A DNA stretch of 64,000 nucleotides from Desulfosporosinus nitroreducens (GTDB lineage Bacteria > Bacillota > Desulfitobacteriia > Desulfitobacteriales > Desulfitobacteriaceae): contig NZ_JAMHFY010000002.1 of the NCBI RefSeq assembly GCF_023897015.1, forward strand, positions 1 to 64,000, written 5' to 3'. Each line of letters opens with the position of its first letter. The first letter of the stretch is position 1. The notes beneath the pieces were generated by a model that was not told the DNA's origin, made no database searches, and saw nothing but the letters and a program-made list of their open reading frames with translations. This document shows, one piece after another, positions 4,728 through 32,759 of the stretch. The translations under genes and the position numbers were made by a program.

Positions 4728-6236
4728 ATGAAAGATAAAGCTAATAATCAAGCCAAAATTGACCACATGTTGTTTTGGCCCCCACTGCTGGTGATTGTCT
4801 TACTTTGTGCTTTTATAGTTTTAAATCCGGAAAGCGGTAATAATGTTGTCAACAGCGTATTTGCAGTGGTAACCGGGAAGCTTGGCTGGACCTATGAGAT
4901 ATTTGTATTGGCTAACATCGGGCTAATCCTTTACTTCATTTTCGGCAAATATGCCAAAAAGAGATTTGGAGATGAAAAGCCGGAATTCAGCACCTTGACC
5001 TGGCTGGGAATGCTCTTCACGGCAGGTACCACCGGCACCATCTTTTTTTGGGCCACCATCGAATTCTATTACTTTCTCTCCGGACCACCGTTTGGGCTTG
5101 AGCCCTTTTCCCCCGAAGCCTGGGATTGGTCCATGGCTTACAGTCTCTTTAACTGGGGAATAGGCGGATATGGACTTTATGTAGCAATTGGGGTTGTTTT
5201 TGGCTATTTTTTCTTTGTTCAGAAGAAAGAGGTTTTTCGTCCAAGTACGGCCTGCGAAACATTCTTAGGTAAACACGCCAGCGGAGCTGTTGGTAAGGTC
5301 ATTGATATCTTCTATATGATTGGAGTGATAGCAGGGGTAAGTACCTCAATCGGCTTAGGAACTCCTATCATAAGTGAACTAATTACCAAGATGTCCGGCA
5401 TTCAGCATACCCTGGGCTTGGATGCGGCCATTATCATTATCTGGACGATCATTTTTACAGTATCTGTTTATTCAGGTTTGGAAAAGGGTATTGCTTTTCT
5501 TAGTAATGTACGGGTTTATTTGGGGTATGGCTTGTTGATTTTTATTATTCTTGTTGGTCCAACCACGTTTATGTTAAACAATTTTTTTGATGCTCTAGGC
5601 ATTTCTCTGAATAGTTTTATGCGGATGAGTCTGTATACTGATGCACATCTGCAGACCGGCTTCCCCCAAGGTTGGACAATTTTCTTCTATGCCTGGTTTA
5701 TGTCCTTTGCACTCAGTACAGGCATGTATCTGGCGCGCATATCCAAAGGACGCACAGTTCGTGAATTTGCATTGGGAGCTACATTTTCCGGAGTATTAAG
5801 TGCCTATCTGTATTTTGCTGTTCTAGGCAACTACAGTATTCAAGTCTTTAATGAGAAGGTTATCGACGTAACACAAATCTTTAACGACTATGGAGCCCAA
5901 AGGGCTGTCGTTGAAATCTGGAATACTCTGCCCTTGAGTATGATTATCCTGCCAATTTTCATGATTCTGATTTTTATCTCCACGGCTAACGTTATTAATA
6001 GTGTGGCCTATACCTTGGCGATGGTTTCGTCAAAAGAACTGAAAAGTGGAGAAGAGCCAGGTAAATTGAGTAGGATAGTTTGGGCAGTTATTCTTGGCTG
6101 TCTAAGCCTTACACTTATGTTTTTGGGTGGTCTTAAACCACTGCAGACATCGGCTACTGCCGGATCGTTCCCTACAATGATCATTATGGGCCTAATATTC
6201 TATGGATTCTTGAAAGAACCCAATCAATGGGATTAA
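4728..6236 (+). CDS. BCCT-family transporter, atypical CaiT-like type
   Basis: 502 residues, about twelve transmembrane helices, with the BCCT landmark ARISKGRTVREF in the middle. The glycine stretch of helix 3 reads GTTGTIFFWATIEF in place of the GMGIGLVFWGVAEP of sodium-coupled family members, and the tryptophan box before ARISKGR reads FFYAWFMSFAL, so several substrate-box tryptophans are missing. These departures resemble sodium-independent exchangers such as CaiT more than BetP. A plausible role is exchange of a quaternary amine for its demethylated product. ATG at 4728 follows GAGGGAG. The gene starts 17 bases after the methyltransferase gene. Confidence 0.85.
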   Translation: MKDKANNQAKIDHMLFWPPLLVIVLLCAFIVLNPESGNNVVNSVFAVVTGKLGWTYEIFVLANIGLILYFIFGKYAKKRFGDEKPEFSTLTWLGMLFTAGTTGTIFFWATIEFYYFLSGPPFGLEPFSPEAWDWSMAYSLFNWGIGGYGLYVAIGVVFGYFFFVQKKEVFRPSTACETFLGKHASGAVGKVIDIFYMIGVIAGVSTSIGLGTPIISELITKMSGIQHTLGLDAAIIIIWTIIFTVSVYSGLEKGIAFLSNVRVYLGYGLLIFIILVGPTTFMLNNFFDALGISLNSFMRMSLYTDAHLQTGFPQGWTIFFYAWFMSFALSTGMYLARISKGRTVREFALGATFSGVLSAYLYFAVLGNYSIQVFNEKVIDVTQIFNDYGAQRAVVEIWNTLPLSMIILPIFMILIFISTANVINSVAYTLAMVSSKELKSGEEPGKLSRIVWAVILGCLSLTLMFLGGLKPLQTSATAGSFPTMIIMGLIFYGFLKEPNQWD

Positions 6237-18496: not shown

Positions 18497-18556
18497 TTAT
18501 TTGTAACAGAAAAAGGCTTGAGGGCGGTCGGCATTCCTCCGAAGGGAGGTGATGCC

Positions 18557-18640
18557 ATGGAAGTATACCAGACTTTGATGCTGATGATTTCATTTGCAAC
18601 ATTGGTAGTGTTAATACTTTCATTCCATAAACGGAAATAG
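18557..18640 (+). CDS. Holin-like type I toxin (Hol_Tox family), 27 aa
   Basis: A very short gene with an excellent ribosome binding site (GGGAGGTGAT at 18544-18553) and ATG 18557. The product begins MEVYQTLMLMISFATLVVL and ends in basic HKRK: a single membrane helix with the LMLMISF core of the putative holin-like toxin family (PF16935). Such peptides insert in the membrane and inhibit growth when not repressed by an antisense RNA. The transcript would end at the hairpin 18713-18742. Confidence 0.8.
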   Translation: MEVYQTLMLMISFATLVVLILSFHKRK

Positions 18641-18712
18641 ACCGCCTCACAGCAAAGGTTCGGTCTATTCCGCACTTTTGAAGCCGACCGCTCTTTAAGC
18701 GGCTGTTACATT

Positions 18713-18742
18713 GGAGTCATGCTACTAACATGACTCCTCTTT
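18713..18742 (+). terminator. Terminator of the toxin mRNA
   Basis: GGAGTCATG and CATGACTCC pair perfectly around a seven-base loop, followed by TCTTT. Confidence 0.75.
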
Positions 18743-26300: not shown

Positions 26301-27269
26301 CTATTTAGACGCAATTAAACGTGGTTTAATGACCGGTTCCGCTATGTCATAATCATCTTTACCTAAAATTCTCTGAATCAAATCACGATTAGTTAACAGG
26401 TTGATTAAGATATTCTCCTCTTTAGTTTTCTTAATGCGGGCATCTGTGAGAATATTAAGGGGGCGATAAAGGGGGCTGTCTTCCATTTGTAATGTCTTAA
26501 AAACTTTTTGATCACTTTCTTTGCTGACAGTTAAGGCGGAAATGATGGTTATACCTAGTCCGGCAGCTACGGCATGTTTGATCGCTTGAGTACTTCCTAA
26601 CTCCATTGCTATATTTAACTGCGCAGGATCAAGTCCGCTCTGCTTTAGCATAATCTCCATCACCTTACGAGTTCCAGAACCCTCTTCTCGGGTCAAGATG
26701 CGCTCGTTCAAGAGTTCATCGAGTCTAATAGTTTTTCTCGCTGCCCAGGGATGGAAATTAGGTATAACAACTACCAACTGATCTTCCCAGAAACTTTCAA
26801 CATTTAGATTTTTGTTCTTGCCCACTGGCCCCTCAATCAAGCCAATATGCATTTTTTTCTCTAAGATATCTTGGGATATGGATTCAGTATTGGCGATTTT
26901 AACCTTAAACTCAACTTCCGGATGAATTCTGTGCAAAAATGTTATAAGATGCGGAAGTATATATTCGCCGATCGTCAAGGTTGCGCCGAGACTGATTATT
27001 TTTTTCTGATTCTTAGTTAGAGCTTCTATCGCCTCTTTGGCAGACGTTAAGGTATCCAGAACACTTTGAACATAACCGTAGAAGACTTTGCCCTCTTTTG
27101 TTAAACTTACGCCTTTATTTGATCTATTAAAAAATTCTGCACCATATTCTTTTTCAAGACTCTTGATTTGTACAGTAACGGATGGTTGACTTATATGAAG
27201 TTTCTTAGCAGATAACGAAATATTGTTAGTTTTAGCTACTTCTTGAAATACAAGCAAGCGTTCATCCAT
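26301..27269 (-). CDS. LysR-family transcriptional regulator
   Basis: 322 residues. N-terminal winged HTH (FQEVAKTNNISLSAKKLHIS, QPSVTVQIKSLEKEYGAEFF) and a LysR substrate domain from about residue 90 with the GEYILPHLITFLHRIHPEVEF and EGSGTRKVMEIMLKQ blocks, as in CysL/CbbR-type members. Start ATG at 27269. No intact divergent target gene is present, only a 520-bp non-coding region with a repeat piece, so its target may have been lost or be itself. Confidence 0.88.
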   Translation of the reverse strand: MDERLLVFQEVAKTNNISLSAKKLHISQPSVTVQIKSLEKEYGAEFFNRSNKGVSLTKEGKVFYGYVQSVLDTLTSAKEAIEALTKNQKKIISLGATLTIGEYILPHLITFLHRIHPEVEFKVKIANTESISQDILEKKMHIGLIEGPVGKNKNLNVESFWEDQLVVVIPNFHPWAARKTIRLDELLNERILTREEGSGTRKVMEIMLKQSGLDPAQLNIAMELGSTQAIKHAVAAGLGITIISALTVSKESDQKVFKTLQMEDSPLYRPLNILTDARIKKTKEENILINLLTNRDLIQRILGKDDYDIAEPVIKPRLIASK

Positions 27270-28665: not shown

Positions 28666-29736
28666 CTAAAAGGGGTTTTCACTTCCCAAACCCCTTCGAA
28701 CCTTAATTGGAAAATCTGTTCGTTTACCGATATAGCCTATGATATTTGCAGCAAGAGTCCCGGCCCGGTTCAACTCAGAGATCATCGAATCAGCCGCCTC
28801 TGCCGGAACGGCCATGAGTAAGCCTCCGGAGGTTTGGGCATCAAATAAAACCATTTGCTCAAAAAACGTTATTTTTTCTTCCCATTGGACTTGGTCTCCT
28901 AAATAGCGAGCATTAGAATGAGTCCCGCCGGAAATTCCGCCATATTTAAGAACATCCCAAACCTGGGGTAAAATCGGCAGCTTGTCATAGTCAAGCTGTG
29001 CAGATAAATCCGGATTTAACATTTCTCTGAGATGGCCCAGTAAACCAAATCCCGAAACGTCCGTGCAGGCATGAACAGGAAAGGCCTGCATAACTTGGGC
29101 TGCTTTGAGGTTAAGTTCCAGCATAACGGCAGTAAGAGCGGCTTCTACCTCATCCTCCACGATCCCAGCATCAATCCCTGATGCAAGAATTCCGGTGCCC
29201 AGAGGTTTGGTCAAGATTAGGGCATCCCCGACAAGGGCACCATTTTTGCGGATTAATTTATGCGGATCAACCAGTCCTGTTACGGAAAGACCATATTTTG
29301 GAGAAGCATCATCCACAGAATGGCCGCCGACAATGGTGAAACCGGCTTCCCCAGCCTTCGCAGCACCGCCGGCCAAAATGGCCCCTAAGGTTTCCATCGG
29401 CATGGTCCTAATGGGAAAGCTGACGATATTCAGAGCAAATATCGGCCGGGCTCCCATGGCGTAAATATCACTGATGGCATTGGCAGCCGCTATAGCTCCG
29501 AAAGAATACGGATCATCAACGACCGGGGTAATGAAGTCCAGAGTTTGTACGATGGCTAGATTTTCATTGACACTATAAGTAGCCGCATCATCATCCAGAC
29601 CGGACAGCAAACCGGGAACGTTCTGTTTGGGCAAATAAGATAAAAGAATGCTTAGGTCCTCCGGACCTATTTTACAAGCTCAGCCAGATCCGGGAGAATA
29701 ATTGGTTAAACGGATTGAACGATTAAGATCTGTCAA
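28666..29736 (-). CDS. selD: Selenide, water dikinase, selenocysteine-containing (in-frame UGA at codon 19)
   Basis: Makes selenophosphate from selenide and ATP, the selenium donor for tRNA-Sec. The open frame after the UGA shows the family clearly (LPKQNVPGLLSGLDDDAA, TLDFITPVVDDPYSFG, FTIVGGHSVDD, ACTDVSGFGLLGH). Upstream, in the same frame, the sequence continues through a TGA at 29680-29682 as RLTNYSPGSG-Sec-ACKIGPEDLSILL, which is the normal SelD N-terminus with Sec at the catalytic Cys/Sec position. The start is TTG 29736, preceded by AAGGAGG. Total 356 residues. A 7-bp hairpin with a three-base loop begins ten bases after the UGA. Automatic annotation would start this gene at the internal TTG at 29634 and lose the active site. 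selA, selB and selC are not in the window. Confidence 0.93.
29653..29669 (-). other. Bacterial SECIS-like hairpin of selD
   Basis: On the minus strand TAGGTCC-GGA-GGACCTA is a perfect seven-pair stem; its loop lies 18-20 bases after the UGA. Position and small G-containing loop fit bacterial SECIS elements recognised by SelB. Confidence 0.75.
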
Positions 29737-31401: not shown

Positions 31402-32532
31402 TTGAAGTTCTCGCCATTTAATTTCCAGGTGCCTTTAGGTGCCGGTGGTATCACACTCATGGCCTTCAGTTATCTGCAGTTTGCAGTGCCTCATGGAGAA
31501 GGATTAATTAAGCTATCAGATATCCCCTGGGCAAGTTTGACAACACTGCAAACCAGCTTGTATGTTCCTCTAATTGGGATTATGCTGATTTTTACCATTA
31601 TCAACTTACTTTCAATTGTTGTTTTTTCAAAAGACCTTATTCAATGGCTTGCGACTAAGGAAGGCTACAAAGAGTTTCTGAGTGGCCCACATTCAAGAAA
31701 TACAGGCATTTGTGTTCCCATCGCCTCCCTGTCTATGACTATGAATGTGATTTTAGCTCCCTTAGCATTTTTTATTCCGCAACTACATGCCAATATCCAA
31801 GGAATGATGCTGCCTGGCTTGATCATGTTTGGATTTCTGTTGTTGATTCTGCTCAAACTGGAATTTACATTGCTTAAAAGCTGGTTAAGCCAGCCGTTGG
31901 ATGTCACAAAGTTGAATTTCGTCTGGCTGCTTGACGTTTTTGCCTTTGGGTTAGTCAATTTAACCGGGGCAGGAATAGCCTCCATGGCCGGTAACAGAGT
32001 GATTGCCTCCCTCGCAGCTGTTGCAACTCTGTTTGCTTTGAGTATGGGTTCTTTCTTACTTGTTATTAAACTTGTTTATTTGATTTACCAACAGCTAAAA
32101 TCCGGCAATTTGCCGGATAATCAAATAAAACCCGCATTTTTTTTAGTCGTGCCCATTACTTGTTTGTATGCCATAAGTTATTACAAAATCATGCTCTACT
32201 TGCAGACCTGGTTTTCCTTTGACATTCAATTAGCATCCTTTTTCTTCGTCACATTTTCTTACCTCATAGCAATTGGTTGGGCTATATTTACAGTATATTT
32301 AATGACTGATTACTTCAAAACTTATTTTCGTAAAAGTGACTATTTCCCGACTCAGTGGGCTATGGTTTGAGCGTTAGTTGGCTCTCAAGTTTTGGGGGTT
32401 TACACATTCGGAAATTATTATCCGAGTTCTATACTTTCAATTGTGAATTATTTAAGTATCCTGTTAGCTTCAATGATTTATTTCATTGTATTGGCTAAGT
32501 TTTATCGAGCCAACAGAGTCAAGAGGGCGTGA
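31402..32532 (+). CDS. TDT-family membrane protein read through an in-frame UGA (candidate selenoprotein)
   Basis: Begins at TTG 31402 after AGGGAGGAAG and reads as a polytopic membrane protein of the tellurite-resistance/dicarboxylate (TDT, SLAC1-like) superfamily (FSPFNFQVPLGAGGITLMAF at the start). At codon 323 there is a TGA (32368-32370). In the same frame 53 further codons follow, with a typical last part of the family (ALVGSQVLGVYTFGNYY, then a membrane helix SILSIVNYLSILLASMIYF) and a stop at 32530-32532; total 376 residues. A hairpin follows the UGA at the same distance as in selD nearby. I recall a family of such (seleno)proteins being called TsoY in protein databases; I cannot verify that here. 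Transport substrate unknown. Confidence 0.8.
32380..32400 (+). other. Bacterial SECIS-like hairpin of the TDT gene
   Basis: GGCTCTCAA-GTT-TTGGGGGTT can form nine pairs (four of them G-U) with a GUU loop located 19-21 bases after the UGA, nearly the same spacing as the selD element. Confidence 0.55.
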
Positions 32533-32537
32533 TAGTA

Positions 32538-32759
32538 ATGGCTGCCGGTGAAATAACTCTGGTTTTGGGAGAAGAGGACAATATAGGTTTGCAACAAGTC
32601 CTAGGACAGTTAGAAGGGATTTTGTTTTATAAGCTAACGCATAGGGAAGCTTTTGTTCGGTATGATTCCCAAAAAATGTCCTATGATCAAATTTTAGAAA
32701 CAGTCCTGCAAGCTAGTTACCAAATTAGTAGGTTTTATGTTACGGAGATGGACAGTTAG
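32538..32759 (+). CDS. Small protein following the TDT gene (73 aa)
   Basis: MAAGEITLVLGEEDNIGLQQ opens a 73-residue alpha/beta protein whose layout (beta-alpha-beta, LEGILFYKLTHREAFVRYDS, QILETVLQASYQI) recalls ferredoxin-like folds such as HMA domains, but without the CxxC metal site. ATG 32538 lies five bases after the TDT stop, so the genes are translationally linked. Function unknown; it is probably the third member of the selenium-related operon. Confidence 0.7.
   Translation: MAAGEITLVLGEEDNIGLQQVLGQLEGILFYKLTHREAFVRYDSQKMSYDQILETVLQASYQISRFYVTEMDS

Follow-up and report, generated by a model that had tools for sequence, protein, structure and literature searches.

The tsoY locus

The window analysed here is a stretch of 64,000 nucleotides from a Desulfosporosinus nitroreducens contig. 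The genes and features around tsoY are as follows.

28666–29736, minus strand: selD2, second selenophosphate synthetase, with an in-frame UGA at 29682–29680 (SPGSGUACK); TIGR00476, 349 bits
29785–30792, plus strand: LysR-type regulator; best NCBIfam match LysR_Sec_metab (NF040786), 162 bits
31043–31375, plus strand: CGGC-domain protein, upstream of tsoY in the same operon; PF08821, 103 bits
31402–32532, plus strand: tsoY, selenoprotein TsoY, 376 amino acids, predicted ten-helix SLAC1/TehA fold; NF047643 (553 bits), AlphaFold2 model and fold search
32368–32370, plus strand: UGA codon, predicted from homologs and alignments to be read as selenocysteine (Sec) 323, in TM9
32380–32400, plus strand: putative bSECIS hairpin, GGCUCUCAA-GUU-UUGGGGGUU; pairing, conservation and published model
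32529–32759, plus strand: small 76-amino acid protein overlapping the end of tsoY; weak CopZ/HMA-like similarity (E = 0.009, far below cut-off)

The tsoY gene starts with a TTG codon preceded by GGAGG and ends at a TGA (32530–32532) that is directly followed by in-frame TAG and TAA codons; the small gene overlapping its end has an alternative ATG start at 32538 and is present only in the two closest genomes. An earlier interpretation made from the letters alone (the sequence-only reading) had placed a CGGC protein in the operon of tsoY and a selD gene with its own in-frame UGA 2 kb away; both are there, the second at a distance of 1.7 kb. The LysR gene beside tsoY scores below the cut-off of the selenium-metabolism LysR model (162 versus 250 bits) and is outscored on that model by a second LysR gene (26301–27269, minus strand; 236.5 bits), which lies about 1.4 kb past the end of selD2. 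Elsewhere in the window, positions 18504–18736 (plus strand) match the Rfam family BsrG, a type I toxin–antitoxin RNA of Bacillus, with 65.1 bits; this region holds a small ORF ending ...MEVYQTLMLMISFATLVVLILSFHKRK, which would mean that a toxin resembling that of BsrG is encoded on a contig of Desulfosporosinus type.

Family membership and decoding of the in-frame UGA

The window protein matches NF047643, the NCBIfam equivalog model for selenoprotein TsoY, far above its cut-off of 250 bits (residues 2–367 aligned with positions 1–366 of the 366 in the profile), and contains the Sec motif UxxV as U323-A-L-V. The selenoprotein TsoY family was published by Haft & Tolstoy in 2025 (mSystems 10:e01417-24). 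TsoY, with the motif UxxV, appears in a 2026 review that cites Haft & Tolstoy 2025 (PMC13188914). TsoY is already a published, functionally uncharacterised selenoprotein family of which the window gene is a member, and since an equivalog model for it exists, the discovery of the selenoprotein as such is not new. There is also a broader umbrella model, NF047644 (‘TsoY family (seleno)protein’); its cut-off was exceeded in 14 out of 398 genomes searched in the phylum, in 5 out of 30 in the genus and, for a second phylum, in 4 out of 296. No match to TsoY was found in plasmid records, and a PADLOC search gave none either.

When the frame was re-read, the TGA at codon 323 was found to be followed by 53 further codons up to the final stop, just as had been claimed. 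Comparison with homologs had been proposed as a check of Sec323, and was carried out on 20 Sec-type copies from 19 species of two phyla. All 20 have TGA at this position and continue past it, none ending there, and a distant homolog (L048, genome G213; ~23% identical) has Cys, so that the column is invariantly U or C across the alignment; a search through the class around this genome brought up no further Cys forms. For the part after the UGA, comparison with the nearest relatives gives a dN/dS of ~0.2 (0.034/0.183 and 0.173/0.768), indicative of purifying selection, and the sequence around Sec is near-invariant.

The nine-pair hairpin that had been noticed with its loop 19–21 nt after the UGA was likewise recovered; it starts 10 nt past this codon. 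Published bSECIS criteria are a loop of 3–9 nt with G in one of its first two positions, a stem of 4–16 bp, a spacing of 16–37 nt and an MFE of −7.5 or lower. The tsoY hairpin agrees with all of them (GUU loop with G first, 9 bp, spacing of 18 nt, MFE of −9.1 to −10.7 kcal/mol), and its folding energy as a single sequence (z = −1.62) is weak evidence when taken alone. Across 19 distinct sequences, 97% of the pair cells are formed, versus at most 72% when the pairing is slid by one column. Among 368 windows of eight codons scanned along tsoY for excess synonymous identity (mean 0.136, SD 0.064), the largest excess (0.449) belongs to the one lying on the hairpin, from codon +3. By these measures of sequence comparison, conservation of the putative bSECIS is strong; covariation is thin, with one pair changed on both sides, and is given no weight here.

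Absence of selA, selB or selC from the genome had been named as an observation that would speak against Sec insertion; selA (596 bits), two selB, two tRNA-Sec (both with anticodon TCA) and two selD genes are all present. The duplicated selB and tRNA-Sec are found on contigs C95 (L062, L017) and C66 (L061, L018), and one of the two sets sits, together with selA, in what appears from its ORFs to be a glycine reductase cluster; given an assembly contamination of 4.6%, one set may be on a foreign contig.

Standard-code gene calling stops at 32368–32370, but that UGA323 is a true stop, with a product of 322 residues that lacks the last helices and with a remnant frame downstream, is very improbable, because this frame is kept in 20 of 20 homologs, purifying selection goes on behind the TGA, the Cys homolog reads through the same position and, in the AlphaFold2 model, the product would be cut a few residues into TM9 and lose TM10 (the sequence-only reading had already pointed to the loss of the final helix). 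Comparative evidence thus makes it almost certain that the window gene encodes a selenoprotein TsoY in which UGA323 is decoded as Sec.

Fold of TsoY and position of Sec323

The AlphaFold2 model of TsoY (pLDDT 90, pTM 0.90) has ten long helices. Its top matches among solved structures are SLAC1/SLAH and TehA, with Z-scores of 30–32, far above the unrelated helical entries: 7en0_A was aligned over 303 residues (Z = 32.1, rmsd 2.9; Foldseek 9.1e-5) and 3m7c over 299 (Z = 30.4, rmsd 3.0). The Pfam family PF03595 is matched with 30.9 bits (cut-off 27.9), and a search of PDB sequences with the TsoY family profile gave no hit, the relation to SLAC1/TehA being caught by Pfam and the fold search only. 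On this modelling, TsoY is predicted to be a ten-helix membrane protein of the SLAC1/TehA type (TDT superfamily) with the fold kept over its full length. The earlier assignment of Sec323 to a TDT-type membrane protein is thereby supported along with the selenoprotein reading itself; its accompanying link to ‘selenium or redox metabolism’ can be worded more specifically, as is attempted below.

In the model, Sec323 lies in the ninth long helix (residues 316–338). Alignment of the TsoY family with the single E. coli TehA sequence by hhalign gave nothing useful; one sequence being too little, a profile was built from 14 TehA/SLAC1 proteins, comprising HiTehA, E. coli TehA and twelve proteins from the genome of the window and its relatives (including the own-genome paralog L133). 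Sec323 was then aligned to Phe262 of HiTehA by hhalign (probability 94–97), by a joint MAFFT alignment and, with a smaller set, by hmmsearch: W-A-F-S-F262-G-L of HiTehA stands opposite W-A-M-V-U323-A-L of TsoY. Phe262 is the gating residue on TM9 of HiTehA (PMC11050165). The column contains Phe in 14 of 14 TehA/SLAC1 proteins and Sec in 20 of 20 TsoY proteins. Sequence identity between the two groups is low (11–14%) and the placement was made by sequence alignment rather than in three dimensions, so that replacement of the pore-gating Phe by Sec323 is to be taken as well-supported, short of proof. With Sec in place of the conserved TM9 gating Phe, the shared fold does not by itself imply channel function. 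Another residue of potential interest is Cys254 in TM7, which all 20 Sec forms have and which is replaced by Thr in the Cys form; this covariation relies on the one sequence, as no other Cys forms turned up.

Neighbours of tsoY and a second selD clade

The neighbourhoods of 20 tsoY loci and of the Cys form were surveyed. LysR regulators occur at 13 loci (the window and 12 others), NifS-like cysteine desulfurases at 7 and CGGC proteins at 5 including the window; selD is a recurrent neighbour, and regulators of the ArsR or ArsR-rhodanese type adjoin some tsoY genes. DsrE-like proteins with a CGTC/CGSC motif are also found near tsoY, and in 6 of 14 (L053, L054, L055, L058, L059 and L060) the first Cys is an in-frame UGA, with a hairpin behind it in the four genes that were folded. 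DsrE-like selenoproteins with UxxC are already known. Ordinary gene callers would stop the Sec-type genes at 76 amino acids.

Most tsoY genomes have at least two full selD genes. In a tree of 41 SelD proteins, the tsoY-linked SelD, with the motif SPGSGUACK, form a clade of their own (support 0.92), from which the housekeeping SelD of these genomes are separate. Of the 20 tsoY genomes, 12 show this pattern of a linked second-clade selD; in the remaining ones the linked selD is of the other type (G099), there is no linked selD or the contig is short. At several tsoY loci no selD is linked, and at one the only selD is of the housekeeping type and ~10 kb off. Conversely, three Desulfosporosinus genomes have the second selD clade without tsoY: in one (L115) a TauE/SafE transporter gene directly adjoins this selD, in another (L112) a TauE/SafE-like gene is located ~1.3 kb downstream (both proteins were filed under TauE by their likeness to the scanned L064 protein), and in the third the genes found are one for a TrsS-like radical SAM protein and one for a small Sec protein. 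Mutual exclusion of TauE/SafE and TsoY was considered and discarded, as L064 carries both, which also means that there is no simple replacement of one by the other. A small thioredoxin-like Sec protein with a GLRUSxLL motif is encoded directly behind selD at L112 (~5870–6150) and L120 (minus strand), where the selD is of the second clade and the genome lacks tsoY; its match to TsoC is weak (22 bits, cut-off 45). A literature search that left aside the original 2025 TsoY paper found no earlier description of either the placement of Sec at the gate or the SelD2 clade.

Possible roles of TsoY

The scheme we favour starts with UGA323 decoded as Sec by SelA, SelB and tRNA-Sec, for which the adjoining hairpin would serve as guide. 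TsoY would conduct selenium through the membrane as a small anion (selenite or HSe-), probably inward, and a selenium supply line would lead through a cysteine desulfurase and a DsrE or CGGC carrier to SelD2, under LysR control. From the fold, the position at the gate and the neighbours, we consider it plausible, if tentative, that TsoY is a selenium anion channel serving a supply line dedicated to SelD2; its substrate and direction are deduced from the neighbours only. A selenolate in the pore might act on the selenium species by binding or reduction, or its redox state might set the gate, though this is more doubtful. The most far-reaching version, in which a selenium-specific anion channel with a Sec gate, controlled by selenium supply or redox state and paired with a dedicated second SelD, is the missing specific selenium transport system of bacteria and itself depends on selenium, must be called improbable at present.

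The main alternative to inward selenium transport is that TsoY has ceased to be a channel and acts within the membrane as a redox enzyme or a sensor. Sec323, perhaps together with Cys254, would then carry out thiol chemistry on a carrier of selenium or sulfur that DsrE or CGGC proteins hand over. Sec is mostly catalytic, and the pattern of Cys254 in the Sec and Cys forms and the redox character of the neighbours (disulfide reductase, DsrE, heterodisulfide-reductase-like genes) fit with this; the retention of the SLAC1/TehA fold over the full length and the fact that no cofactor motif was seen in TsoY argue against it, and we deem it rather unlikely.

A further possibility, to which we would give similarly little credence, is that TsoY protects the cell by expelling oxyanions of selenium or sulfur (or another metalloid) that are in excess or toxic, rather than supplying it with selenium. 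The yeast sulfite pump Ssu1 is also a TDT-superfamily protein. It exports selenite, with sulfite as a competing substrate (PMC10269739), so that the superfamily is capable of selenite transport and the direction in TsoY could be outward. The TauE/SafE ‘sulfite exporter’ genes near related selD genes and the ArsR-type regulators point the same way. Against export, though not decisively, stands the linkage of tsoY to selD, cysteine desulfurase and DsrE genes, whose products use or carry selenium or sulfur; assimilation is also what the LysR gene and the additional selD suggest.

Comparison with known systems

According to a 2026 review, prokaryotes have yielded no system for specific, high-affinity selenium transport so far, and the in vivo selenium donor to SelD is not settled (PMC13188914). 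Both questions become testable, and this in culturable Desulfosporosinus species, through a selenoprotein that has an anion-channel fold, with Sec apparently at the gate, and a genetic link to a SelD clade of its own.

In comparison with selenoprotein TsoY as defined by NF047643, no distinguishing feature was found in the window protein, which shares the full-length match and UxxV. Within the wider TsoY family (NF047644), the Cys form shares the Sec column as Cys and differs in its low identity and in being without Cys254. TehA/SLAC1 proteins (PF03595, TDT) have the same ten helices, from which TsoY appears to differ by Sec in place of the TM9 gating Phe. Ssu1, of the same superfamily, moves selenite and differs in being a eukaryotic exporter without Sec. 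Finally, YedE is, like TsoY, a ten-helix membrane protein encoded beside selenium genes; it is a proposed selenium transporter, and its neighbours are LysR, the DsrE-domain protein YedF and Sec lyase (PMC5322559).
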